A stretch of 64,000 bases of DNA from Pseudofrankia inefficax (GTDB taxonomy: Bacteria > Actinomycetota > Actinomycetes > Frankiales > Frankiaceae): positions 2,914,001-2,978,000 of the forward strand of contig NC_014666.1 of assembly GCF_000166135.1 (NCBI RefSeq), written 5' to 3'. Both the position numbers and the translations under genes were made by a program. The notes beneath the pieces are model-generated. The model was not told where the DNA came from. It was given only the letters and a program-made list of their open reading frames with translations, and did not search any database. This document shows positions 7,734-37,651 of the stretch, one piece after another; the stretch's first letter is position 1; every line of letters starts with the position of its first letter.

Positions 7734-9281
7734 CTAGGTGTCGAGGTGCATCGCGAGCAGGCGGGGTCCGAGCTCGGTGATGGTGCCCGCCCCCAGGGTC
7801 AGCAGGAGGACGTCGTGGCCTGGCAGGTCGGCGGCGAGGCGGTCGGGCAGCTCGGCCCAGGCGACGTAGCTCGTCTCGGCCGGTACCCGGACCCGCTTGG
7901 CCAGGTCGCAGGCGTGTACCCCGAGGTCGTCGCGTTCCCGCGCGGCGTAGATGTCCGTGACGTAGAGCCGGTCGGCGTCGCCGAACGCCACGGCGAAGTC
8001 GGCCAGCAACGCGGCCAGGCGGCTGTAGGTGTGCGGCTGGAGCACCGCCCAGACCTGCCGGCCCGCCGCCTGCTGGCGCGCCGCGGCGAGCGTGGCGCGG
8101 ATCTCCGTCGGGTGGTGGGCGTAGTCGTCGACGATCTCGACCGCTCCGGTGCCGGGCAGTGCCCGGGCGCCGATCCGCTGGAACCGCCGCGCGGCGCCGG
8201 TGTAGCCGGCCAGCGCGGTGAGTGTCGTCTCGACCGGTACGCCCAGCTCGCTGGCGGTGGCGAGCACAGCCAGCGCGTTCAGGACGGTGTGCCGGCCGGG
8301 TAGCGCGAGGCGCAGTGTTCCGACCGGCTCCCCGTCGCGCAGCACGGTGGCCTCGGTCACCACCGGCGGCCCGGCGGCGGTCCGGTCGAGGCCGTCCGCG
8401 CCGCCGTCGGCGTCAGCGGAAGTGGCCGAGCCCGAGGCCGGACGGGCGCCGTCGGGCTGGCCGGTCGTGACGACGTCCACCGCGCGCCAGCCGAGCCCGT
8501 CCCCGAAGCCGTAGCGGACGACCCGCGGCCCGCCACCGGAGCCCTCGGCGAGCGTGCCGAGGACGGCCGCGACACCCGGGTCGTCGCCGCAGGCGACCAG
8601 CGTGCCGCCGGGACGAACCCGGGCGGCGAACGCGGCGAAGACCGCGCGCACGGCCGCCTCGTCGGGGAAGAGGTCCGGGTGCTCCCACTCGACGTTCGTC
8701 AGGATCGTGACCGCCGGGTCGAGCCCGCGGAACGCCCCGCCGTACTCGTCGGCCTCCAGCACGAAGATCTCGCCCCGGCCGACCACCGCTCCGCCGCCGA
8801 GCTGCGGTACCTCGCCGCCGATCACGGCGGTCGGGTCGGCGCCGGCGGCGCGCAGCGCGACCGTGAGCATCGCCGAGGTGGTGGTCTTGCCGTGCGAGCC
8901 GGCCACGGCGACCAGCCGGTAGCCGGCGGTCAGCTCCGGGAGCCAGTCCGAGCGCCGGCGCACGGGCAGGCCGGCCGCGCGGGCGGCGACGATCTCCGGA
9001 TGGTCGTCGGGCAGGGCGCTGGAGGCGACGACGACGTCCACGCCGGCCAGTTCGGCGGCCAGGGCGCCAGGATCGGGCGGCGCGCCGGTGCGGACCCGGG
9101 CGCCCAGCGCGCGCAGCGCCTGGACCCGGTCGGACGGCTCCTGGTCGCTGCCCGAGACGCTCGCGCCGCGCGCCAGGGCGATCCGGGCCAGCGGGGCGAG
9201 GCCGGAGCCGCCGATGCCGAGGAAGTGCACGCGCGCGTCGCCCGCGCTCCGGGTTGCCTGCTCGCTTGTTCCTGCGCTCAC
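7734..9281 (-). CDS. murC: UDP-N-acetylmuramate--L-alanine ligase, inverted relative to the dcw cluster
   Basis: Cytoplasmic ligase adding L-Ala to UDP-MurNAc. The Rossmann motif HFLGIGGSGLAP is at residues 19-30, the ATP loop GSHGKTT at 128-134, and EADEYGG and the late DDYAHHPTEI motif confirm MurC. The GTG at 9281 gives 515 aa and places the Rossmann motif where expected. The frame stays open further upstream but that part is low-quality Arg/Pro-rich sequence. The gene reads opposite to murG and ftsZ, although it normally sits between them in the same direction, so it must have its own promoter. Confidence 0.93.
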   Translation of the reverse strand: MSAGTSEQATRSAGDARVHFLGIGGSGLAPLARIALARGASVSGSDQEPSDRVQALRALGARVRTGAPPDPGALAAELAGVDVVVASSALPDDHPEIVAARAAGLPVRRRSDWLPELTAGYRLVAVAGSHGKTTTSAMLTVALRAAGADPTAVIGGEVPQLGGGAVVGRGEIFVLEADEYGGAFRGLDPAVTILTNVEWEHPDLFPDEAAVRAVFAAFAARVRPGGTLVACGDDPGVAAVLGTLAEGSGGGPRVVRYGFGDGLGWRAVDVVTTGQPDGARPASGSATSADADGGADGLDRTAAGPPVVTEATVLRDGEPVGTLRLALPGRHTVLNALAVLATASELGVPVETTLTALAGYTGAARRFQRIGARALPGTGAVEIVDDYAHHPTEIRATLAAARQQAAGRQVWAVLQPHTYSRLAALLADFAVAFGDADRLYVTDIYAARERDDLGVHACDLAKRVRVPAETSYVAWAELPDRLAADLPGHDVLLLTLGAGTITELGPRLLAMHLDT

Positions 9282-23264: not shown

Positions 23265-23642
23265 CTAGACGGTGATCAGTGTGAGCCCGGGGTCCAGAAC
23301 GTGGATGTCTTTCGGGTCCGAGGTGACCACCGGCGCGCCGAGGTCGCGCGCCAGCAATGCGACGTGGCCGTCGACGACGTCGCTCGTTCCCGTGACGGCC
23401 AGAAGACGCCCGACCTTCATCGCGACGCTTTCAGTAAGTGGTTCGACTCGGACGGTGTCACTCCGAACGAGCCCGATGACCGCATGCTGGCGAGCCGAGC
23501 CACGCCAAACCTGTGCGAGCACCCCGGCCGGGATGTGCGCAAAGAAACCCTTGATGGCCAGCTCGTCGATGATCGTCAGTACTCGGTGGGCCCGACGTTC
23601 CAAAGCGATCAAGGCTCCGGAGTCGAGCACGACCGTGGTCAC
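23265..23642 (-). CDS. PIN-domain ribonuclease toxin (VapC-like)
   Basis: A 125-aa PIN-fold protein, predicted Mg-dependent RNase. The first acidic residue is in VVLDSGALIALER near the start. The remaining PIN acidic residues are in TGTSDVVDGHVALLARDLGAPVVTSDPKDI. The GTG at 23642 overlaps the antitoxin stop (GTGA), the tight coupling usual for toxin-antitoxin operons. It ends convergently with ileS. The RNA target cannot be inferred. Confidence 0.87.
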   Translation of the reverse strand: MTTVVLDSGALIALERRAHRVLTIIDELAIKGFFAHIPAGVLAQVWRGSARQHAVIGLVRSDTVRVEPLTESVAMKVGRLLAVTGTSDVVDGHVALLARDLGAPVVTSDPKDIHVLDPGLTLITV

Positions 23643-28226: not shown

Positions 28227-29672
28227 GTGGTCACGCAGTTCGGTCGAGGGCAGAAGAGCCAGCTGTCCGCGATCACGCAGGGCACCGACCTTGTCATCGG
28301 CATCCAGCTCAACGCCCCGGGCACCAGCTGGGACATCTCCTGCTTCGGCCTGGACGGCAACGACCGGCTCTCCGACGACCGGTACTTCATCTTCTTCAAC
28401 CAGCCGAAGTCGCCGGAAGGCTCGATCGAGCTGCTCGGCGCCCAGCAGGGCGACACCGCCGCGTTCCGGGTGAACCTGGGCGCCGTGCCGTCCTCGGTCG
28501 ACAAGCTGTCGTTCTGCGCGGCGATCGACGGGGCCGGCAGCGCCCGGCAGATCGTCTCCGGCTACTTCCGGATCGTCGTCGGTGGCCAGGAGGTGCTGCG
28601 CTACCCCTTCAGCGGCGCGGACTTCACCACCGAACGAGCCGTCATGATCGGCGACGTCTACCGCAAGGGCGTCTGGCGGGTCGCCGCCAACGGGCAGGGC
28701 TTCGCCGGCGGCCTCGCCGAGCTGATTCGCTCCTACGGCGGCGAGGTCGAGGACGAGGCCCCCGCCGCCCCGCCGCCGGTCGCCGCGCCGGCCCCGGCCG
28801 GCGGGTTCGCGCCGCCACCCCCGGCTCCCGGCGGCTACGCCCCGCCGCCCCCTGCTCCCGGTGGCTACGCTCCGCCGCCCGGCCCCGCGGCCCCACCGCC
28901 GATCCCGCAGCCGGCGCCTCCCGCGGCCCCGATGGCCCCCGCGGCCACCGGCCCGGCCGCGGCCGTGATCAGCCTGTACAAGGAACCGCCGCCGTCGCTG
29001 GCGCAGCCGGTCCCGCCGGGCGCGATGGCGAGCCTCACCCCGTACGCCGAGAACCAGGCGGCCGGCCGGTGGGTGCTGCAGAACCCCAGGCTGGTCAAGG
29101 TCCGGCTCGGCGAGGACGCGCTGGCGCTGCGCGGCGCGATGGTCGCGTACCAGGGCAACATCGAGTTCGACTACAAGGGCCGCGGCCTGCGGGGCATGCT
29201 CGAGGACAAGCTCACCGGCCAGGGCCTGAAGTTGATGACCTGCAAGGGCCAGGGTGAGGTCTTCCTCGCCCAGGACGCGGCCGACCTGCACATCGTCGAG
29301 CTCGGCCAGGGCCAGCAACTCTGCGTCAACACCAAGAACGTGCTGGCCATGGACGCGACGATCCGCAGCGAGGTCAAGCGGATCGAGAGCGCCGGCATCC
29401 CCGGCGGCGGCGTCTTCCACTTCGAGATGGCCGGCCCCGGCACGGTCGTCGTGATGACCAAGGGCACCCCGCTGACGCTGCCCGTCCAGGGGCCGACCTT
29501 CGCGGACATCAACGCGCTCGTCTGCTGGACGGTCGGCCAACGGGTCAGCGTCTCGTCCCACGTCGGGATCTCGCGCCAGATCTATCACACGGAGAGCGGC
29601 GAGACGTTCAACATGCAGTTCCAGGCCATGGGCGGTGGCCATTTCATCGTCGTCCAGCCGTACGAGGTCTGA
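28227..29672 (+). CDS. TerD-AIM24 fusion protein
   Basis: The GTG at 28227 follows GGGGAGG and gives 481 aa with two domains. Residues 1-175 are a TerD/CABP-type stress domain: LVIGIQLNAPGTSWDISCFGLDGNDRL, DDRYFIFFNQPKSPEGSIELLG and FRIVVGGQEVLRYPFSGADFTTERAVMIGDVYRKGVWR. A linker of about 90 residues with repeated PPPAPGGYAPP units follows. Residues from about 270 to 480 form an AIM24 (DUF124) beta domain with GGGHFIVVQPYEV at the end. TerD proteins are linked to tellurite, phage and stress resistance; AIM24's biochemical role is unknown. It heads a three-gene AIM24 operon. Confidence 0.85.
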   Translation: MVTQFGRGQKSQLSAITQGTDLVIGIQLNAPGTSWDISCFGLDGNDRLSDDRYFIFFNQPKSPEGSIELLGAQQGDTAAFRVNLGAVPSSVDKLSFCAAIDGAGSARQIVSGYFRIVVGGQEVLRYPFSGADFTTERAVMIGDVYRKGVWRVAANGQGFAGGLAELIRSYGGEVEDEAPAAPPPVAAPAPAGGFAPPPPAPGGYAPPPPAPGGYAPPPGPAAPPPIPQPAPPAAPMAPAATGPAAAVISLYKEPPPSLAQPVPPGAMASLTPYAENQAAGRWVLQNPRLVKVRLGEDALALRGAMVAYQGNIEFDYKGRGLRGMLEDKLTGQGLKLMTCKGQGEVFLAQDAADLHIVELGQGQQLCVNTKNVLAMDATIRSEVKRIESAGIPGGGVFHFEMAGPGTVVVMTKGTPLTLPVQGPTFADINALVCWTVGQRVSVSSHVGISRQIYHTESGETFNMQFQAMGGGHFIVVQPYEV

Positions 29673-29684
29673 CGGGAGCCGGTC

Positions 29685-30377
29685 GTGCAGGGACAACTGA
29701 TCGATCACTACGGCCAGACCCCGGTCATGGACCGGATGAGCAAGCACGGGTCCAAGATCGCCAAGGTGGTGATGTGGCCCGGGTTCGACCTGTTCGCCCG
29801 GTCCGGCTCGATGATCGGCTACGAGGGCCTCATCGAGTTCGACCCGCAGCCGCCGCAGGTCCGCAACATCGCCAAGAGCTGGGCGACCGGCGAGGGCGTG
29901 CCGCTGATGACGGCCAGGGGCCAGGGGCTGCTCTACCTCGCCGACTACGGCAAGGACGTCATCGTCCTGCAGCTCACCCCGAACGAGGCCGTTTCGGTCA
30001 ACGGCAAGAACATCCTGGCCTTCGACGCCCACCTGCAGTGGGGCATCGAGCGGGTCAAGGGCGTGTCGATGTTGTCCGGCATGGGCATGTTCAACGTGAT
30101 GATCCGCAACAACACGCCCAACCCCGGCTGGGTCGCGATGACCTCCAAGGGCACCCCGATCATGCTGGACACCCGCGAGGCGCCGACGTTCGTCGACACC
30201 GACGCGCTTGTCGGCTACACCGAGGGACTGCACATCGAGAAGCGGCGCACCGCCGGGATCGGCGGCATGCTCGGCCGCGGTTCGGGCGAGGCCTTCCAGC
30301 TGGGCTTCTCCGGCCAGGGCTTCGTCGTCGTCCAGCCCAGCGAGGACGCCCGCCCGCACTTCTCGCCACGCGGATGA
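29685..30377 (+). CDS. AIM24-family protein
   Basis: A stand-alone AIM24/DUF124 protein of 230 aa, 12 bp behind the TerD-AIM24 gene with ribosome site GGGAG before GTG 29685. The domain shares GQGLLYLADYGKDVIVLQL, SVNGKNILAFDAHLQWGIERVKG and the closing GFVVVQPSED with its two neighbours, so the three are paralogues. No signal peptide or membrane helix is present. Function unknown; membrane or stress association is only inferred from the TerD fusion upstream. Confidence 0.85.
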   Translation: MQGQLIDHYGQTPVMDRMSKHGSKIAKVVMWPGFDLFARSGSMIGYEGLIEFDPQPPQVRNIAKSWATGEGVPLMTARGQGLLYLADYGKDVIVLQLTPNEAVSVNGKNILAFDAHLQWGIERVKGVSMLSGMGMFNVMIRNNTPNPGWVAMTSKGTPIMLDTREAPTFVDTDALVGYTEGLHIEKRRTAGIGGMLGRGSGEAFQLGFSGQGFVVVQPSEDARPHFSPRG

Positions 30378-30477
30378 TCATGTCTCCGCCGGCTCTCCGC
30401 GGGTCGCGGCCCGCCGCCGATCCCGTCGTTGTGCTCCCGCGCCGGCCGTGCCCGGCCGCCGCTGGAAGGACGTCGTC

Positions 30478-31605
30478 ATGAGCTACCCGCCGCCTCCGCC
30501 AGGCCACGGCTACCCGCCTCCGCCCGGTCAGGGCTTCCCGCCGCCCCCCGGCGGCTTTCCGCCGCCTCCCGGCGGTGGCTACCCGCAGGCCCCTGGCGGC
30601 TATCCGCCCCCCGGCCCCGGCGGCTACCCGCCGCCGCCCGGAGCCCCCGGTGGCTTCCCGCCCGGTGGCCCGGGTGCCTTCCCGCCGGGAATGCCGCCCC
30701 CGCCCCCTGGCATGGGCCCGGGCGGCGGTGGCAACGCGAGCGGCGGCATCCGCAGCTCGCTGCTCGACAACCCCGAGGTCAGCTCTGCCGAGCGGTTCAC
30801 CCTGCAGAACGGCAAGATGCTCAAGGCCAACCTCGGCGCCCAGGGCATGCGGGAGTTCTTCGCCCGCGCCGGCGCGATGGTCGCCTACAAGGGCGGCGTC
30901 CACTTCGACGGCCAGTGGGAGGGCTGGGCCGGCCAGTGGAGCCACCTGTTCGGCGACGGCGAGACCCTGCACCTGATGAAGGTCCACGGCGCCGGCTCCG
31001 TCTTCCTGGCCAACCAGGCGCAGGACGTCTACCTCGTCGACCTCGACGGCCGGGACGGTTTCACGATCGACGGGCGCAACGTCCTCGCCTTCGACACCAG
31101 CCTGAGCTGGGAGGTCGTCAAGATCCAGTCCCATGTCGGGATCGCGGGGGTCGGCGGCTACCAGATCGAGCTGACCGGCAGCGGCAAGCTCGCGATCTGC
31201 GTGACGGGCGCGCCGCTGGTCATGCGCGTCACCACGCAGAACTACTACTTCGCCGACGCGGACGCGGTCGTCGGCTGGTCGTCCGGCCTGCAGGTCTCGA
31301 TGGAGGCGGCGGTGACGTCGAGCTCGGCGTGGAAGCCGCGCGGCAACACCGGCGAGGGCTGGCAGATGCAGTTCACCGGCGACGGCTTCGTCGTGATCCA
31401 GCCGAGCGAGCTCATGCCGCCGTACAACGCGCTCGCCGGCCGGGGTCCCGGCGCCCAGCTGTTCGGCATGGGCCAGAGCGGCTTCGCCGGCAACCGGCTC
31501 GGCGGCCAGGGCAACCCGCACGGGAGCGGACAGCCCGGTCACGTGCAGGGCCCGCCCGGCCTCGGTGGCCTGTTCGGCCAGATGGGCCGCGGCTTCCTGC
31601 AGTAG
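30478..31605 (+). CDS. AIM24-family protein with Pro/Gly-rich N-terminus
   Basis: The ATG at 30478 follows GGAAGGA by 7 nt and gives 375 aa. About 85 residues of PPPPGGGYPQAPGGYPPP-type repeats come first, a disordered tail seen on many actinobacterial membrane-associated proteins. The AIM24 domain follows, from about residue 95 to 320, with GGVHFDGQWEGWAGQW, IDGRNVLAFDTSLSWEVVKI and GFVVIQPSELMPPY. A Gly-rich tail ends LGGLFGQMGRGFLQ. It is the third and last AIM24 paralogue of the operon. Confidence 0.85.
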   Translation: MSYPPPPPGHGYPPPPGQGFPPPPGGFPPPPGGGYPQAPGGYPPPGPGGYPPPPGAPGGFPPGGPGAFPPGMPPPPPGMGPGGGGNASGGIRSSLLDNPEVSSAERFTLQNGKMLKANLGAQGMREFFARAGAMVAYKGGVHFDGQWEGWAGQWSHLFGDGETLHLMKVHGAGSVFLANQAQDVYLVDLDGRDGFTIDGRNVLAFDTSLSWEVVKIQSHVGIAGVGGYQIELTGSGKLAICVTGAPLVMRVTTQNYYFADADAVVGWSSGLQVSMEAAVTSSSAWKPRGNTGEGWQMQFTGDGFVVIQPSELMPPYNALAGRGPGAQLFGMGQSGFAGNRLGGQGNPHGSGQPGHVQGPPGLGGLFGQMGRGFLQ

Positions 31606-31691
31606 CGGCCGAAGGCGGTGACCGGCCCGCCATCCCGTGATGTGCGCGAAACAGCACGTCGGCCGGGGTGCGGGCCAGTTACCGTCGGGCC

Positions 31692-32018
31692 ATGTTTGCC
31701 GCGCTCCAGCTCGCGCTGGCCATCGTGCTGGAGATCGTGGCGACGACGGCGCTTCGGCAGTCCAACGGGTTCACCCGCCTGTGGCCGACGCTCCTGGTCG
31801 TCGTCTGCTACCCGGTGTGCTTCTACCTGCTGTCTCGGGCGCTGCGGACGATCTCGCTGGCCGTCGCCTACGCGATCTGGTCCGGCGCCGGCACGGCGGT
31901 CGTCGCGGCGATCGGCGTGTTCGCGTTCAAGGAACAGATGAACACCCTGAAGGCCGCCGGCCTCGCTCTCATCATCCTGGGCGTCATCGGCCTCCAACTC
32001 GGCGGCACCAGCCGCTGA
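31692..32018 (+). CDS. Small multidrug resistance (SMR) family transporter
   Basis: A four-helix membrane protein of 108 aa. The essential membrane glutamate sits in AIVLEIVATTALRQSNGF near residue 14, as in EmrE-type proton-coupled cation exporters. SLAVAYAIWSGAGTAVVAAIG and FKEQMNTLKAAGLALIILGVIGL match the family. The ATG at 31692 is preferred over an upstream start because it opens directly into helix 1. Single-gene SMR pumps usually act as homodimers. Substrate unknown. Confidence 0.9.
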   Translation: MFAALQLALAIVLEIVATTALRQSNGFTRLWPTLLVVVCYPVCFYLLSRALRTISLAVAYAIWSGAGTAVVAAIGVFAFKEQMNTLKAAGLALIILGVIGLQLGGTSR

Positions 32019-32172: not shown

Positions 32173-32865
32173 CTACGAGCCGGCCCGCCCGGCGCCCGGG
32201 GTGATCAGGCCCGTCTCGTAGGCGACGATGACGGCCTGGGCGCGGTCGCGGACCTGGAGCTTGGCCAGGATGCGGGCGACGTGGGTCTTCACGGTCGCCT
32301 CGCTCAGCTGGAACCGCGCGGCGAGCTCGGCGTTGCTCAGCCCCTGGGCCAGGAACTCGAGGACCTCCAGCTCACGGGGGGTGAGCGCGGACAGGTCCCG
32401 GTGCAGCCTGGCGGCGCCGCTGTCCCGCGAGGCGAAGCGCTCGACCAGGCGCCGGGTGATGGCGGGCGCGAGCAGCGCGTCACCCATCCGGACCAGGCGG
32501 ACCGCCGCGACCAGGTGCTCGGGGCTGACGTCCTTGAGCAGGAAGCCGCTGGCGCCGGCGGTCAGCGCCGCGTAGACGTAGCGGTCGAGGTCGAACGTGG
32601 TGAGGATGATGACGCGCGGGGCGGCGGCGGCGTCGATCGGCCGGCCGCCGAGGATCCGCCGGGTGGCCTCCAGGCCGTCCATCTCGGGCATCCGGATGTC
32701 CATCAACACGACGTCCGGGCAGGTCCGGCGGACCGCGTCGACGGCCTGCCCGCCGTCCGCTGCCTCCGCGACGACGTCGATCCCGTCGGCGGCGAGGATC
32801 ATGCGGAAGCCGGAGCGGACCAGCGCCTGGTCGTCCACGATGACCACCCGCGGTGGCGAGGTCAT
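32173..32865 (-). CDS. LuxR/NarL-family response regulator
   Basis: Response regulator of 230 aa. The receiver domain has the phospho-acceptor Asp in VVLMDIRMPEMDGLEATRR (about residue 56) and a conserved Lys in SGFLLKDVSPEHLV. The C-terminal LuxR helix-turn-helix is LTPRELEVLEFLAQGLSNAELA. The ATG start overlaps the histidine kinase stop (ATGA), so both are made together. Its likely target is the divergent ABC transporter at 34.6-37.7 kb; that link is inferred from position. Confidence 0.95.
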   Translation of the reverse strand: MTSPPRVVIVDDQALVRSGFRMILAADGIDVVAEAADGGQAVDAVRRTCPDVVLMDIRMPEMDGLEATRRILGGRPIDAAAAPRVIILTTFDLDRYVYAALTAGASGFLLKDVSPEHLVAAVRLVRMGDALLAPAITRRLVERFASRDSGAARLHRDLSALTPRELEVLEFLAQGLSNAELAARFQLSEATVKTHVARILAKLQVRDRAQAVIVAYETGLITPGAGRAGS

Positions 32866-34232
32866 GCCGGTCCCAGCGGGATCACGGCGCGCACCTGGTA
32901 GCCGCCTGTGTCGGCCTTCTCGGCCCGCAGCGTTCCTCCGTAGACGGCGAGCCGCTCGCGCAGCCCGATCAGGCCGCGCCCGCTGCCGGCGTCGGCCGGC
33001 GCCGTGGCCAGCCCGCCGGTGTCGGTGACCTCGACGCTCACGGCGTCGTCCGTGTAGCCGATGGTGATCGCGACGCTGGCCCCCGCGGCGTGCTTGACCG
33101 TGTTGGTCAGCGCCTCCTGCACCACCCGGTAGGCGGCCAGGTCGACACCGGGCGGCAGCGGCCGCGGCTGCCCGGCCAGGGTCAGCCGGACCGGCACCCC
33201 GGTGTCGCGGACGCGGCCCGCCAGCGCCTCGACCTGGCCGAGGCCCGGCTGAGGGGCGAGGTCGCCACCGCCCGCGGCGTCCGGGCCGTCGGTGGCCATC
33301 CCGTCGGTCGCCATCCCGTCGGTGGCCAGGGTGAGCAGGCCCATCACGTGGCGCAGCTCGGCCATCGCGGCCCGCCCGCCGGCCTCGACCGCGAGCAGCG
33401 CCTCCCTGGCGGCGTCGGGCGCCACGTCGATCACCTTGCGGGCCGCGCCGGCCTGAACGACCATCACGCTGACATTGTGGGTGACCACGTCGTGGAGCTC
33501 ACGCGCGATCCTGGAGCGCTCCCGCTCGACCGCGAGCCGGGTGGTCGCCTCCTGCCCGGCCTCCAGTCCCAGCGCCCGCTGTTTCCAGGTGTGGATCGCG
33601 TTGGCCGCCAGGCCGAGCGGAACCAGCACGAGAAAGGGCACGTAGACGCCCTTGATCGTCAGGATCCCCCGGAACGTGACCGGCGCGATGAGGAGCGCGC
33701 CCACGACCACCGCCGTGAGGGCGCCCGTCCGGTAGGGGCTGTAGCGCGCGGCGCTGTAGCCGGCGATCAGGCAGGTCAGCGACAGCGCCTCGGCGGCGAC
33801 CGGGCTGTCGGCGCACAGGTGGAAGACCAGGATCGCCACGACCACGGAGCAGAATGCCGCCAGCGGGTAGCGGCGGCGGACCAGCAGCGGCGCCGCGGTC
33901 AACGCGGCACCGACCGCCAGCGCCCAGTGGGTGCCGGCGTCCATCTGGGTCACGATGTCGACCGGAAGCTTGACCCCGGGAAGCGGCACGGGCGTCGCGA
34001 AGGGGGCGAAAGGCGCGTCGGGCGCCGTCGGCGCGTGGGGCAGGACCATCACGGCCGCGTCCTCGCCGACGCGGTCTCGCCATGCGTAGAGGCCCGTCCC
34101 CACGGCCAGGACCGCGGCGAGGGTCAGGTCGGCGAGCAGGGCCCAGGACGAGAGGTCGGGCCGGTCGCGGGTCGCCCGCGGCAGGTTGGTGGCCCAGGCG
34201 CGTACGCGCTCCGTGACCGCCTCCCGGGTCAC
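32862..34232 (-). CDS. NarL-type sensor histidine kinase
   Basis: Membrane sensor kinase. Several helices in the first 240 residues are followed by the HisKA_3 box ERSRIARELHDVVTHNVSVM, with the phosphorylated His in ELHD. An ATPase domain ends GRGLIGLRERLAVYGG. Residues around 305-318 hold a threefold TDGMA-like repeat from a 15-bp tandem DNA repeat (33288-33330). The GTG at 34232 gives 456 aa; GTG 34358 and ATG 34409 are possible alternatives and no ribosome site is decisive. Confidence 0.9.
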   Translation of the reverse strand: MTREAVTERVRAWATNLPRATRDRPDLSSWALLADLTLAAVLAVGTGLYAWRDRVGEDAAVMVLPHAPTAPDAPFAPFATPVPLPGVKLPVDIVTQMDAGTHWALAVGAALTAAPLLVRRRYPLAAFCSVVVAILVFHLCADSPVAAEALSLTCLIAGYSAARYSPYRTGALTAVVVGALLIAPVTFRGILTIKGVYVPFLVLVPLGLAANAIHTWKQRALGLEAGQEATTRLAVERERSRIARELHDVVTHNVSVMVVQAGAARKVIDVAPDAAREALLAVEAGGRAAMAELRHVMGLLTLATDGMATDGMATDGPDAAGGGDLAPQPGLGQVEALAGRVRDTGVPVRLTLAGQPRPLPPGVDLAAYRVVQEALTNTVKHAAGASVAITIGYTDDAVSVEVTDTGGLATAPADAGSGRGLIGLRERLAVYGGTLRAEKADTGGYQVRAVIPLGPA

Positions 34233-34571
34233 CGGTCCGCCAGGGGCCAACACCTCGGCCAACCAGGGCCGCCGCGGCAGCGCCGACCGTGCGTCGGTCG
34301 TGTGGCGTCGACTCGCTACGCCGTCCCGCGGACGGTCTCCGATGGCTTCCCGGTGCACCGGTCCAGTGTGGCAACGCCAGGGACCTGGGACATCCACCTG
34401 GCGGTGCATCGCCGTACATCGCTCGCCTACCTCGCGGGGATGACACGCGGTTCGGATCATCCTGGCGCGGTAGCCGACTTCGCCATCGCGGGCGACGTAG
34501 CGGACCCGGTCGCCCACCTAGCGTCGCCGTCGACCTTTCCGACCGGACCGTGGGGACGCGTGGGCGAAACG
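34233..34571. other. Divergent promoter region between kinase and ABC genes
   Basis: About 340 bp between divergent units, less GC-biased than the flanking genes. It should contain both promoters and the binding site of the response regulator. No clear palindrome or hexamer pair was found, and alternative kinase starts extend into it. Confidence 0.5.
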
Positions 34572-35249
34572 ATGATCGAGATCCATGAGGTGAGCAAGCG
34601 GTACGACGCCGGGCCGCCGGCCCTGGTCGACCTGTCGCTGAATGTGCGGGCCGGGGAGACGCTGGCCGTGCTCGGCCCGTCCGGCAGCGGCAAGTCGACG
34701 CTGCTGAACATCATCGCGGGGCTCGACCGCCCCAGCGCCGGCAGCGTCGTCGTCGACGGAGTCCGGGTCGACTCCTTGGGCGAGGCCGCCTCGGCGCGGT
34801 ACCGGCGAGCCAAGATCGGCCTGGTCTTCCAGTTCTTCAACCTGCTCGACGACCTGACCGTCGTCGACAACGTCCTGCTGCCGGCCCAGCTCGCCGGGAT
34901 GCCGCGGGCGAAGGCGCGCGCCCGGGCGGGCGAGCTGCTCGACCATCTCGGCATCGGCCGGCTGGCCCGGGCCTATCCCGGCCGGCTCTCCGGTGGAGAG
35001 CGGCAGCGGGTCGCGGTCGCCCGGGCGCTGGTGAACCGGCCGGCCCTGCTGCTGGCCGACGAGCCGACCGGCGCGCTGGACAGCGCCTCGGGCGCGCAGG
35101 TCAGGGAGCTGCTGGTCCGGCTGCGCGAGGATGGCCAGACGATCCTGCTGGTCACCCACGACGTGGCGCTCGCCGAGGCCTGCGCGAGCCGGACCATCGA
35201 GCTGGTGGACGGCGCGATCACCCGGGATGCCACGGCGGTGGCCCGATGA
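34572..35249 (+). CDS. MacB/LolD-type ABC transporter ATPase
   Basis: ATPase of 225 aa. Walker A GPSGSGKST is near residue 36, the Q-loop is in IGLVFQFFNLLDDLTVVDNV, the signature LSGGERQR and Walker B ALLLADEPTGALDS follow, with the switch His in LVTHD. The FQFFNLLDDLTV and DEPTGALD variants are those of MacB/LolD/antimicrobial-peptide type transporters. The stop overlaps the permease start (ATGA). Divergent from a two-component system, an arrangement common for drug or peptide-sensing modules. Confidence 0.93.
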   Translation: MIEIHEVSKRYDAGPPALVDLSLNVRAGETLAVLGPSGSGKSTLLNIIAGLDRPSAGSVVVDGVRVDSLGEAASARYRRAKIGLVFQFFNLLDDLTVVDNVLLPAQLAGMPRAKARARAGELLDHLGIGRLARAYPGRLSGGERQRVAVARALVNRPALLLADEPTGALDSASGAQVRELLVRLREDGQTILLVTHDVALAEACASRTIELVDGAITRDATAVAR

Positions 35250-37651
35250 GGGCTCGGCGCGGAGCACTGGGCGCGGTGGTGCGGGCCGGGGTCGGCCGGC
35301 ACCGGGTGCGGACCATCGTGCTGACCCTGACCGTGCTTCTGGCCGTGGCCGCGTCCGTCCTCGCCACCGGGCTGCTCGTCGCGTCGAACGCGCCGTTCGA
35401 CCATGCCTTCGCCGGCCAGCACGGCGCGCACCTGACCGCCCAGTTCGACGGGACGAAGGTCACCGCCGCGCGGCTCGCCGCCACCGCGCGGGCGCCGGGG
35501 GTGACTGCCGCGGCCGGCCCCTTCCCGACCACGTCGGCCCGGCCGCGCACCACCGCAGGGAGCGTCGGCATTCCCGCGGGAATCGACCTGCAGCCGCTGA
35601 CCATCGTCGGTCGAGCGGACCGTGGTGGGCCGGTTGACGACGTGACGCTGCTGCAGGGGCGATGGGCCACCGGCAGCGGGGAGATCGTGCTGGCCTCCGA
35701 CGCGGGAGGTGCTCCGGTGGGGCTCGGCGACACGCTGCTGTTCCCGGGACGGACCGGCAGCCAGACGCTGACGGTCGTCGGCATCGCCCGCTCGGTGAGC
35801 CATACCGCCGACGCCTGGGTCGTCCCCGCGCAGCTGCCGGCCCTGACCGCCACCGGCACGACGGCCGGCTTCGAGATGCTCTACCGGTTCCACGCCGCCG
35901 GTACTGACGCCGAGGTGGCGGCCGGCCGGGCCACGATCGCGGCCGCGGTGCCCGCCGGGTCGATGACCGGCACCCAGTCCTACCTCGCGGTCAGGCAACG
36001 CGCGAACTCCAACACCGCGGCCTTCGTGCCGTTCGTCGCCGCCTTCGGCATCCTCGGGCTCGTGATGTCGGCCCTGATCATCGGCATCGTCGTCAGTGGC
36101 GCCGTCGGCGCGGCCATCGGGCGGATCGGCGTCCTGAAGGCGCTTGGCTTCACCCCGGCGCAGGTCGTGCGCGCCTATCTCGGGCAGGCGCTGATCCCCG
36201 CGTCGGTGGGCGTCGTGCTCGGCGCCCTCGGCGGGAACCTGCTGGCGGTGCCAGTGCTGCGCGAGCAGGCGAACGCCTACGGCGGCATCGCCCCGTCGAT
36301 CCCGCTCTGGGTCGACGTCGCCGTGGCGGCGACGGCCCTCGCGGTCGTCGGCGCCGCCGCCCTGGCGCCCGCGCTGCGGGCCGGCCGGCTGCGGGCCGTC
36401 GAGGCGATCAGCGTCGGCCGGGCCGTCCGCACCACCCGCGGGCGCCTGGCGCAGCGGCTGGTCGGCCGGTCGCGGCTGCCGCGCGCGGTGGCGCTCGGCC
36501 TGGCCCAGCCCTTCTCGCGTCCGGCCCGGTCGTCGGTGCTGGTCGCCGCGATCGGCTTCGGCGCGATCGGCGTGACGTTCGCGGTCGGGCTCGGGCTCTC
36601 GCTGAACGACATCCAGGCGGCGCGCAACCGCGACTCACCCGGCGCCGTCGTCGTCTACGCGGCCGGTCCGGCGCGGGGCCCCGGGGCGGGGAAGGTTCCG
36701 CAGCCGTTGAGCGCGCAGACCCCGGTCCAGCCCGATTCGGGCGCGGTCGCCGCCGCGATCAGGGCCCAGTCGGGAACTCGCCGCTTCTACGGCGTCAGCC
36801 AGACGGAGGTAAGCGTCTCCGGTCTCACCGGGGCGACCACGGCCGTCGCCTATCAGGGCGACTCCTCCTGGGCGGCCTACCAGATGATCTCGGGACGCTG
36901 GTTCAGCCGGCCGGGGGAGGTCGTCGTCGGCACCCGGTTCCTCCATGCCGCGGGCGTGAAGGTCGGCGACAGCGTCACGGTTCTCGACCAGGGCCACAGC
37001 GTCAGCCTCCGGATCGTCGGCGAGGCCCTCGACCTCCATCACGACGGAATGACCCTGCTGACCGAAGGCGACTCGCTGGCCGGGCTTGGCGAGGACCTTT
37101 CGCCCACGGAGTTCCACGTCGACCTCAAGCCCGGTACCAACCTGGCCGGGTATCTCGGCGTCTTGGGCCCCGCGCTCAGGGCCAGCGGTGGCGACGCCGA
37201 GGCCAACCTCACCGACACCTCTTCGGTGATCGCGACGATGGAGACGCTGATCGGCACGCTCACCCTGGCCCTCACGGTCGTCGCGGCGCTGGGCGTGCTC
37301 AACACCGTCGTCCTCGACACCAGGGAGCGCGTCCACGACCTCGGCGTGTTCAAGGCGTTGGGCATGACGCCCCGCCAGACCGTGGGCATGGTGATCGCGT
37401 CTGTCTCGGGCCTTGGGCTGGTCGCGGGCCTGGTCGGCGTGCCCGCGGGAATCGCGCTGCACCACATGATCGTCCCGTTGATGGGCCACTCGGTCGGCAC
37501 CGGGATTCCGCACGCGGATGTCGCGGTCTTCGGCGGGCCGGTGCTGGTGCCGCTGGCCCTGGGCGGGCTGGTCATCGCGGTGGCCGGCGCCATGCTCCCC
37601 GCGGTCTGGGCGGCGCGGACCCGGGCCGTGACAGCGCTGCGCTCCGAGTAG
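35246..37651 (+). CDS. FtsX/MacB-like ABC transporter permease
   Basis: A membrane protein of 801 aa with two FtsX-type repeats. Helix 1 is TIVLTLTVLLAVAASVLATGLL, then an extracytoplasmic domain, three helices from AAFGILGLVMSALIIGIVVSG to about residue 385, and a second unit starting near residue 430. The last three helices begin at TLIGTLTLALTVVAALGVLNTVV. GVLKALGFTPAQVV and GVFKALGMTPRQTV are the paired coupling motifs. It acts with the preceding ATPase; by family it moves lipids or peptides, or couples ATP use to an envelope process, rather than importing nutrients. Confidence 0.92.
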   Translation: MRARRGALGAVVRAGVGRHRVRTIVLTLTVLLAVAASVLATGLLVASNAPFDHAFAGQHGAHLTAQFDGTKVTAARLAATARAPGVTAAAGPFPTTSARPRTTAGSVGIPAGIDLQPLTIVGRADRGGPVDDVTLLQGRWATGSGEIVLASDAGGAPVGLGDTLLFPGRTGSQTLTVVGIARSVSHTADAWVVPAQLPALTATGTTAGFEMLYRFHAAGTDAEVAAGRATIAAAVPAGSMTGTQSYLAVRQRANSNTAAFVPFVAAFGILGLVMSALIIGIVVSGAVGAAIGRIGVLKALGFTPAQVVRAYLGQALIPASVGVVLGALGGNLLAVPVLREQANAYGGIAPSIPLWVDVAVAATALAVVGAAALAPALRAGRLRAVEAISVGRAVRTTRGRLAQRLVGRSRLPRAVALGLAQPFSRPARSSVLVAAIGFGAIGVTFAVGLGLSLNDIQAARNRDSPGAVVVYAAGPARGPGAGKVPQPLSAQTPVQPDSGAVAAAIRAQSGTRRFYGVSQTEVSVSGLTGATTAVAYQGDSSWAAYQMISGRWFSRPGEVVVGTRFLHAAGVKVGDSVTVLDQGHSVSLRIVGEALDLHHDGMTLLTEGDSLAGLGEDLSPTEFHVDLKPGTNLAGYLGVLGPALRASGGDAEANLTDTSSVIATMETLIGTLTLALTVVAALGVLNTVVLDTRERVHDLGVFKALGMTPRQTVGMVIASVSGLGLVAGLVGVPAGIALHHMIVPLMGHSVGTGIPHADVAVFGGPVLVPLALGGLVIAVAGAMLPAVWAARTRAVTALRSE

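Follow-up and report, generated by a model that had tools for sequence, protein, structure and literature searches.

What could three adjacent AIM24 genes, the first of them fused to a TerD domain, be doing together in an actinobacterial genome? The question is raised by a 64,000-nucleotide (nt) stretch of the soil bacterium Pseudofrankia inefficax (NC_014666.1, positions 2,914,001 to 2,978,000; hereafter the window, i.e., the whole stretch that was analyzed), which belongs to a complete Frankiaceae genome of 8,815,781 bases and carries the genes p1, p2, and p3 one behind the other (Table 1). For bacterial AIM24 proteins, no physiological function was known as of 2019 (PMC6677890), and the mechanism of the ter-encoded proteins was still to be worked out as of 2018 (PMC5822837). 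We lean toward the view that these genes make up a branch of the Ter system (tellurite, phage, and stress) with three subunits, which would form one hetero-trimer docked to the Ter apparatus through TerD.

The sequence-only reading of the window had described three adjacent AIM24 genes, the first a TerD fusion with a PPAPGGYAPP linker, and this description was borne out by Pfam and by composition. In p1, TerD covers residues 1-170 (E = 1.1e-36; PF02342 score of 126.5 bits against a curated cut-off of 25.3) and AIM24 covers residues 288-477 (E = 5e-25), and the AIM24 domain lies at residues 22-218 of p2 (E = 1.6e-31) and 113-309 of p3 (E = 4.5e-31). The PF01987 scores of p1, p2, and p3 (88.8, 110, and 108.6 bits, respectively) all exceed the curated cut-off of 25.7. 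NCBIfam returned no match for p1 and only TIGR00266, below its cut-off, for p2 and p3. A comparison of the p1 TerD domain with the PDB gave 3ibz (E = 6.6e-21) and 2kxt (E = 3.7e-20). The p1 linker of ~110 residues, which includes the PPAPGGYAPP repeat, consists of proline, glycine, and alanine to 73%, and a Pro/Gly-rich tail of ~90 residues precedes the AIM24 domain of p3. The whole genome holds three AIM24 matches, all of them at this locus, and 11 TerD matches.

How far this arrangement extends was examined by a scan with p1 across one genome per species, in which 78 loci were kept out of 250 relatives, and all six frames of the loci were searched with profiles grown from the window proteins. 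The series TerD-AIM24/AIM24/AIM24 proved intact at 56 of the 78 loci; with the window and seven genomes of a phylum draw (n = 198), this gives 64 loci, identical in gene order, among which no two share an identical AIM24 triplet. They come from Frankiaceae, Micromonosporaceae, and Streptomyces-type genomes and represent the genera Frankia, Pseudofrankia, Parafrankia, Dactylosporangium, Streptomyces, Wenjunlia, and Embleya; the seven phylum-draw loci, all of genus g3, are called Streptomyces-type by resemblance. Counted by eye from the AIM24 matches only, 29 of the 35 genomes in the window's family show a cluster of three within 3 kb of a single contig. The other six comprise one with an unfused triad (G211), one with two adjacent copies plus one (G201), three with a single AIM24 (G203, G208, and G231), and one with none (G213), a genome that is 63% complete. 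A fused TerD-AIM24 gene is also present in Deinococcus taeanensis (identified by Pfam) and Nocardia farcinica (identified by our own profiles). The sequence-only reading had proposed a search for recurrent fusions and their neighbors as a check, and the recurrence across many genera rules out a fusion confined to this strain.

Linker length in the 64 intact loci ranges from 87 to 235 residues, with group medians of 58-66% for proline, glycine, and alanine together, and the TerD fusion and its linker are general features of the triad. The differing N-terminal parts that had been noted for the three proteins hold within the window, but the Pro/Gly tail of p3 does not generalize: the distance between the F2 and F3 domains (i.e., the AIM24 domains at the second and third positions) is 209-534 nt in Frankiaceae and 92-101 nt in the other groups, so the long tail is a property of Frankiaceae and not of triads in general.

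Loci with TerD only (n = 16 of the 78) were considered as a possible unfused ancestor and rejected, as they are mostly contig ends: in 13 of them, the contig stops no more than about 210 nt away from the TerD domain. L040 shows a poly-C collapse in the linker near position 8540, and in L065 and L073 the linker runs into unrelated sequence. These TerD-only loci were excluded from the count of intact triads, as were four loci that have three AIM24 genes and no intact fused frame, i.e., L032 (contig start), L056 and L064 (broken linker frame), and L078 (run of Ns). The rest of the 22 loci outside the intact set are L017 and L055, which have the fused gene but not F2 and F3. As a side observation, draft assemblies seem prone to break at the proline-rich p1 linker (L040, L056, L064, L065, L073, and L078).

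The three AIM24 positions are old. In a maximum-likelihood tree of 66 AIM24 domains, built by a quick search and supported only by Shimodaira-Hasegawa-like approximate likelihood ratio test (SH-aLRT) values, the F1, F2, and F3 domains (16 rows each; F1 being that of the fused gene) each fall on one side of a branch, with support of 100, 98, and 99, respectively. Frankiaceae and Dactylosporangium group together within each of them (SH-aLRT of 93, 99, and 85), and the Streptomycetaceae hold together as a single group in F1 and likewise in F3; in F2, Embleya stands apart from the others. Because each position is its own clade with the families inside it, the F1/F2/F3 split predates the split of the families, and the order has been retained. 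The separate old clades of the three positions also rule out a recent duplication of the AIM24 genes.

The triad is associated with the Ter enzymes, namely StiP, a phosphoribosyltransferase (PRTase)/TRSP protein, and a lyase, all of which are present in the window genome. We analyzed 393 genomes of the class, taking the AIM24 and StiP counts, whose genome handles agree, as one draw. AIM24 was found in 196 genomes and StiP above cut-off in 91, and StiP occurs in 85 of the 86 genomes that have at least three AIM24 copies; in G328, the StiP match is below the cut-off. By genus, the association is 16/1/2/118 of 137 (Fisher p = 9e-18) and by genome it reaches p = 9e-78, in both cases with kinship ignored. 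Within genus g186, StiP is present in both genomes with at least four AIM24 copies and in none of the nine listed with one or two.

Physical linkage supports the same connection in some lineages. In Dactylosporangium L015, L037, and L043, genes for PRTase_2/TRSP, StiP/PELOTA, TerD-TerD, and TerD are followed on the same strand by the fused triad; a C-C lyase gene also heads the run in L015 and L043, a position that falls outside the stretch examined for L037. The Ter genes were assigned by Pfam in L015 and by a scan of the loci. Collectively, co-occurrence and, in some lineages, gene neighborhood back the tie between AIM24 and TerD stress proteins that the fusion had suggested, and we are confident in a Ter association of AIM24 triads taken by itself.

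The type of TerD domain in p1 gives a further indication. The acidic loop GDNxxGxG, by which TerD binds calcium, occurs in none of 17 aligned fused TerD rows and in 15 of 27 unfused rows, and all 17 fused rows have D-I/V-S/A-C-F at the classical DLDAS site of TerD. The fused TerD domains form one clade, with long branches and an SH-aLRT of 100, together with the N-terminal domain of the protein encoded at L135:14625-15830, which we name TerA because it matches Enterobacter cloacae TerA (35.5% over residues 9-386). Since the fused TerD groups with the N-terminal domain of TerA, p1 looks like a TerA whose second half has been swapped for AIM24; indeed, p1 lacks the C-terminal half of TerA and has AIM24 in its place. 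In Pseudomonas aeruginosa, plasmid proteins whose annotation is VWA domain-containing have a TerD that is 49% identical to that of p1, and this annotation suggests that p1-type TerD may serve as an adaptor ahead of several modules.

A second kind of triad was found in many Actinomycetes, with three adjacent AIM24 genes, no fused TerD, and a strongly diverged third gene (L121, L123, L125, L127, L129, L131, L133, L134, L140-L144, L146-L148, and L150). This unfused kind is a set of three in 17 genomes, which are among 21 picked from the class draw, and G130 has four in a row; seven g3 genomes have both the fused and the unfused triad. Unfused triads lie beside Ter enzymes in L134, L140-L144, and L146, and L135 has a four-gene AIM24 set beside StiP-like, PRTase, HAD, TerA, TerD, and TerC genes. 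No Ter enzymes were seen in the stretches of L121, L129, L147, L148, and L150. Most of the L140-L146 stretches were picked after the closeness of triad and StiP had been seen, so the fair count is that, of the 17 genomes that carry an unfused triad, 7 have StiP within 15 kb on the same contig. In Tsukamurella (L154, 7001-10435), a TerA-like gene, whose protein is 31% identical over its length to the TerA of G130, is followed by three AIM24 genes, and this set is divergent from TerD, TerD, DUF475, a hypothetical gene, lyase, PRTase, and StiP; it is possibly an unfused counterpart of the window operon. An Aneurinibacillus plasmid has the order TerD, TerD, AIM24, hypothetical gene, DUF475.

Structure prediction bears on how the three proteins might assemble. 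Compared with the PDB by sequence, p2 gave only 1yox, which was not significant (E = 0.79), and p3 gave no credible match. The three AIM24 genes of L029, a Streptomyces relative, share a frame and were joined into one chain (668 residues) and aligned with 26 further rows; AlphaFold2 modeled this chain with a mean predicted local distance difference test (pLDDT) value of 68 and a predicted template modeling (pTM) score of 0.66. Seven significant structure matches were obtained for the model, i.e., 1pg6 (Z = 17.0) and six chains of 1yox (Z = 17.3, over model residues 226-433, the F2 part), and Foldseek and VIA-align searches gave no convincing fold apart from these two. As modeled on this relative, the AIM24 fold is that of 1YOX/1PG6. 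Plant AIM24 has been modeled on 1YOX/1PG6, with three TRAP-resembling beta-sandwich repeats and a possible homotrimer (PMC6677890). A need for three unlike subunits would fit with possible trimeric closure of this fold. For three freely arranged domains, a pTM of about a third would be expected by an uncomputed estimate, and the value of 0.66 is a hint that the three AIM24 domains prefer a certain arrangement. When p1 alone was modeled (pTM of 0.43), TerD was well predicted and AIM24 poorly; this is no clean control for the joined chain because the query and the alignment differ. Together, the conservation of three paralogues, the trimer-modeled fold, and the joined-chain pTM lend support to the idea of a hetero-oligomer.

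From the conserved triad with its old paralogues, the Ter association, and the TerA-type TerD, we infer a ring and its docking as follows. The products p1, p2, and p3 would assemble as one hetero-trimer with nine TRAP-like blades, three per subunit. TerD, carried on the flexible linker of p1, would tether this ring to proteins of the TerD family on the inner side of the membrane, where the AIM24 ring may occupy the place that the C-terminal half of TerA has in classical ter operons and may act as a scaffold or as a sensor of membrane or chemical stress for the Ter apparatus. The membrane attachment of p1-p3 is proposed by analogy with yeast Aim24, which is firmly attached to the inner membrane although no transmembrane segment is predicted in it, and which is part of a ~400-kDa complex (PMC3975624); no transmembrane-like stretch was found in p1, p2, or p3. 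A more specific and quite improbable version holds that the asymmetric nine-blade ring is a receptor for a small molecule made by the C-C lyase, PRTase, and StiP, with pockets at the unlike interfaces, much as TRAP binds tryptophan between its subunits, and with TerD signaling ligand binding to the membrane-associated Ter complex.

A number of observations weigh against a single Ter-docked hetero-trimer. The joined model was obtained from unusual input (27 rows, and three genes as one chain) and has 143 residues with a pLDDT below 50, and two of the five joined-chain models had a mean pLDDT below 50. The missing acidic loop does not set the fusion apart and is weakened as a mark of it, because 12 of the 27 unfused TerD rows, one of them cut by a contig end, lack the loop too. 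Ter enzymes lie near the fused gene at just 3 of 71 loci in the stretches examined, a number that includes own-genome copies and short stretches; none was found in the 64-kb window, and the lyase-PRTase/TRSP-StiP cluster of the window genome is 1.7 Mb away from the triad (StiP at C1:1222852). StiP is present in 6 of the 307 genomes with fewer than three AIM24 copies (G203, G208, G231, G287, G290, and G326), and one genome with a triad, G493, does not appear among those with a StiP match. Beyond the three genes, no neighbors are common between families: at an E of 1e-10, every open reading frame (ORF) of the window outside the triad matches fewer than six of 50 other loci, and flanks are common to 34-35 Streptomyces-type loci. 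The fused gene has no second AIM24 beside it in Deinococcus (L151) and Nocardia (L152), with 13-15 kb examined, and in Dactylosporangium L017 and L055 it is followed by TerD, with F2 and F3 absent from the stretch examined. In addition, neither kind of triad needs the other, since each occurs on its own, the fused one in G430 and the unfused one in G551.

The fused genes that stand without F2 and F3 in these four stretches (L017, L055, L151, and L152) would be expected if the three AIM24 proteins formed separate homotrimers within Ter, with partly different partners or ligands, and the operon merely co-regulated them; the plant homotrimer models, built on single-protein templates, point the same way. 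We nevertheless consider this rather unlikely, as F1, F2, and F3 occur together and in order at 64 loci, the unfused kind is also a threesome in 17 genomes (although there are four in G130), and the joined chain reached a pTM of 0.66. Alternatively, the triad might organize membranes or lipids in the manner of yeast Aim24, largely outside Ter chemistry, with the TerD of p1 as a stress-responsive adaptor only. Yeast Aim24 is attached to the inner membrane and has effects on MICOS and on the modification of cardiolipin (PMC3975624), and the triad is remote from the ter enzymes in the window genome; such a role is nonetheless improbable given that StiP is present in nearly every genome with at least three AIM24 copies and in few others, and that the triad terminates the run of ter genes in Dactylosporangium. 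Finally, the Ter link might have arisen as a by-product of kinship or genome size within a handful of large actinobacterial clades and reflect no joint function. Most of the 86 genomes do come from Frankiaceae (n = 31) and genus g3, and the association tests leave kinship aside, but the association persists when counted by genus and within g186, and physical linkage recurs across several families, which makes this explanation very improbable. One hetero-trimer that would work within Ter is the reading that we retain.

AIM24 genes beside TerD, with an interaction suggested, were described by Anantharaman, Iyer, and Aravind in 2012, as cited in PMC5822837. The AIM24-Ter link is therefore already published, as far as that citation goes, and the novelty is below what the sequence-only reading had assumed; our literature searches on AIM24 and TerD turned up neither the fused triad nor a connection between it and StiP. 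Both the published ter-neighborhood AIM24 genes (PMC5822837) and the present ones are found with TerD-family genes; compared with the former as cited there, the present set begins with an AIM24 that carries a fused TerD, continues with two more AIM24 paralogues, and may be located far from the ter enzymes. Relative to TerA, p1 has an N-terminal TerD of the same clade followed by a Pro-rich linker, but it ends in AIM24 whereas TerA ends in a second part of its own. SPyM3_0169 (1PG6) and PA3696 (1YOX) share the fold of the AIM24 part modeled from L029 (Z of 17), but they are single proteins, whereas the window set consists of three paralogous proteins, of which one carries TerD. Yeast Aim24 and plant PAWH1/2 likewise have an AIM24 domain, a predicted TRAP-like fold, and large or trimeric assemblies, either reported or proposed (PMC3975624 and PMC6677890); they differ in that they reside in eukaryotic organelles, and PAWH has a predicted C-terminal membrane helix that p1-p3 lack.

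Table 1. Features of the AIM24 triad, with coordinates counted from the first base of the window
Feature	Coordinates	Strand	Description	Basis
p1 (F1)	28227..29672	+	TerD, Pro/Ala/Gly-rich linker, AIM24; 481 aa	Pfam PF02342 and PF01987, ortholog alignment
p1 TerD domain	28227..28745	+	TerA type, without the acidic GDNxxGxG loop	Alignment, TerD tree, PDB matches 3ibz and 2kxt
p1 linker	28743..29066	+	Pro/Ala/Gly-rich; length varies among loci	Composition
p1 AIM24 domain	29067..29666	+	Position F1	Pfam, own profile, F1 clade (SH-aLRT 100)
p2 (F2)	29685..30377	+	AIM24 without added parts; 230 aa	Pfam, F2 clade (SH-aLRT 98)
p3 (F3)	30478..31605	+	Pro/Gly-rich N-tail, AIM24, Gly-rich C-tail; 375 aa	Pfam, F3 clade (SH-aLRT 99), distances between domains, tail composition

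The gaps between the genes, all on the same strand, are 12 nt (p1-p2) and 100 nt (p2-p3), and a purine-rich motif lies ahead of all three start codons. For p3, the ORF list gives a start at 30208; the likely start is the ATG at 30478, which is 6 nt downstream of the motif GGAAGGAC. Between 27700 and 32150, we found no sigma-70 consensus promoter, a result of little weight in such G+C-rich DNA, and the sole terminator-like site is on the minus strand, with none on the coding strand. The term operon is therefore used on the basis of spacing, strand, and conservation.

Directly past the triad, 31668-32018 encodes an SMR-type small multidrug transporter, which is present too in the Pseudofrankia locus L012. 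Farther on, 32173-37651 holds a LuxR-type response regulator and a histidine kinase adjoining an ABC ATPase (assigned by eye) and an FtsX-like permease, an arrangement that is usual for envelope-stress transporter sets. On the other side, a PIN-domain protein is encoded on the minus strand at 23265-23642 (E = 1.9e-6), beside a small gene for which Pfam gave no match; our guess is that the two form a VapBC-type toxin-antitoxin pair.

The Ter association gives bacterial AIM24 proteins a role that can be tested. If AIM24 triads are a fixed component of Ter, the function of AIM24 and the mechanism of Ter would become testable in one three-gene operon, including in tractable Streptomyces. The Ter link may also bear on why AIM24 domains work at membranes in mitochondria and in the plant endoplasmic reticulum.

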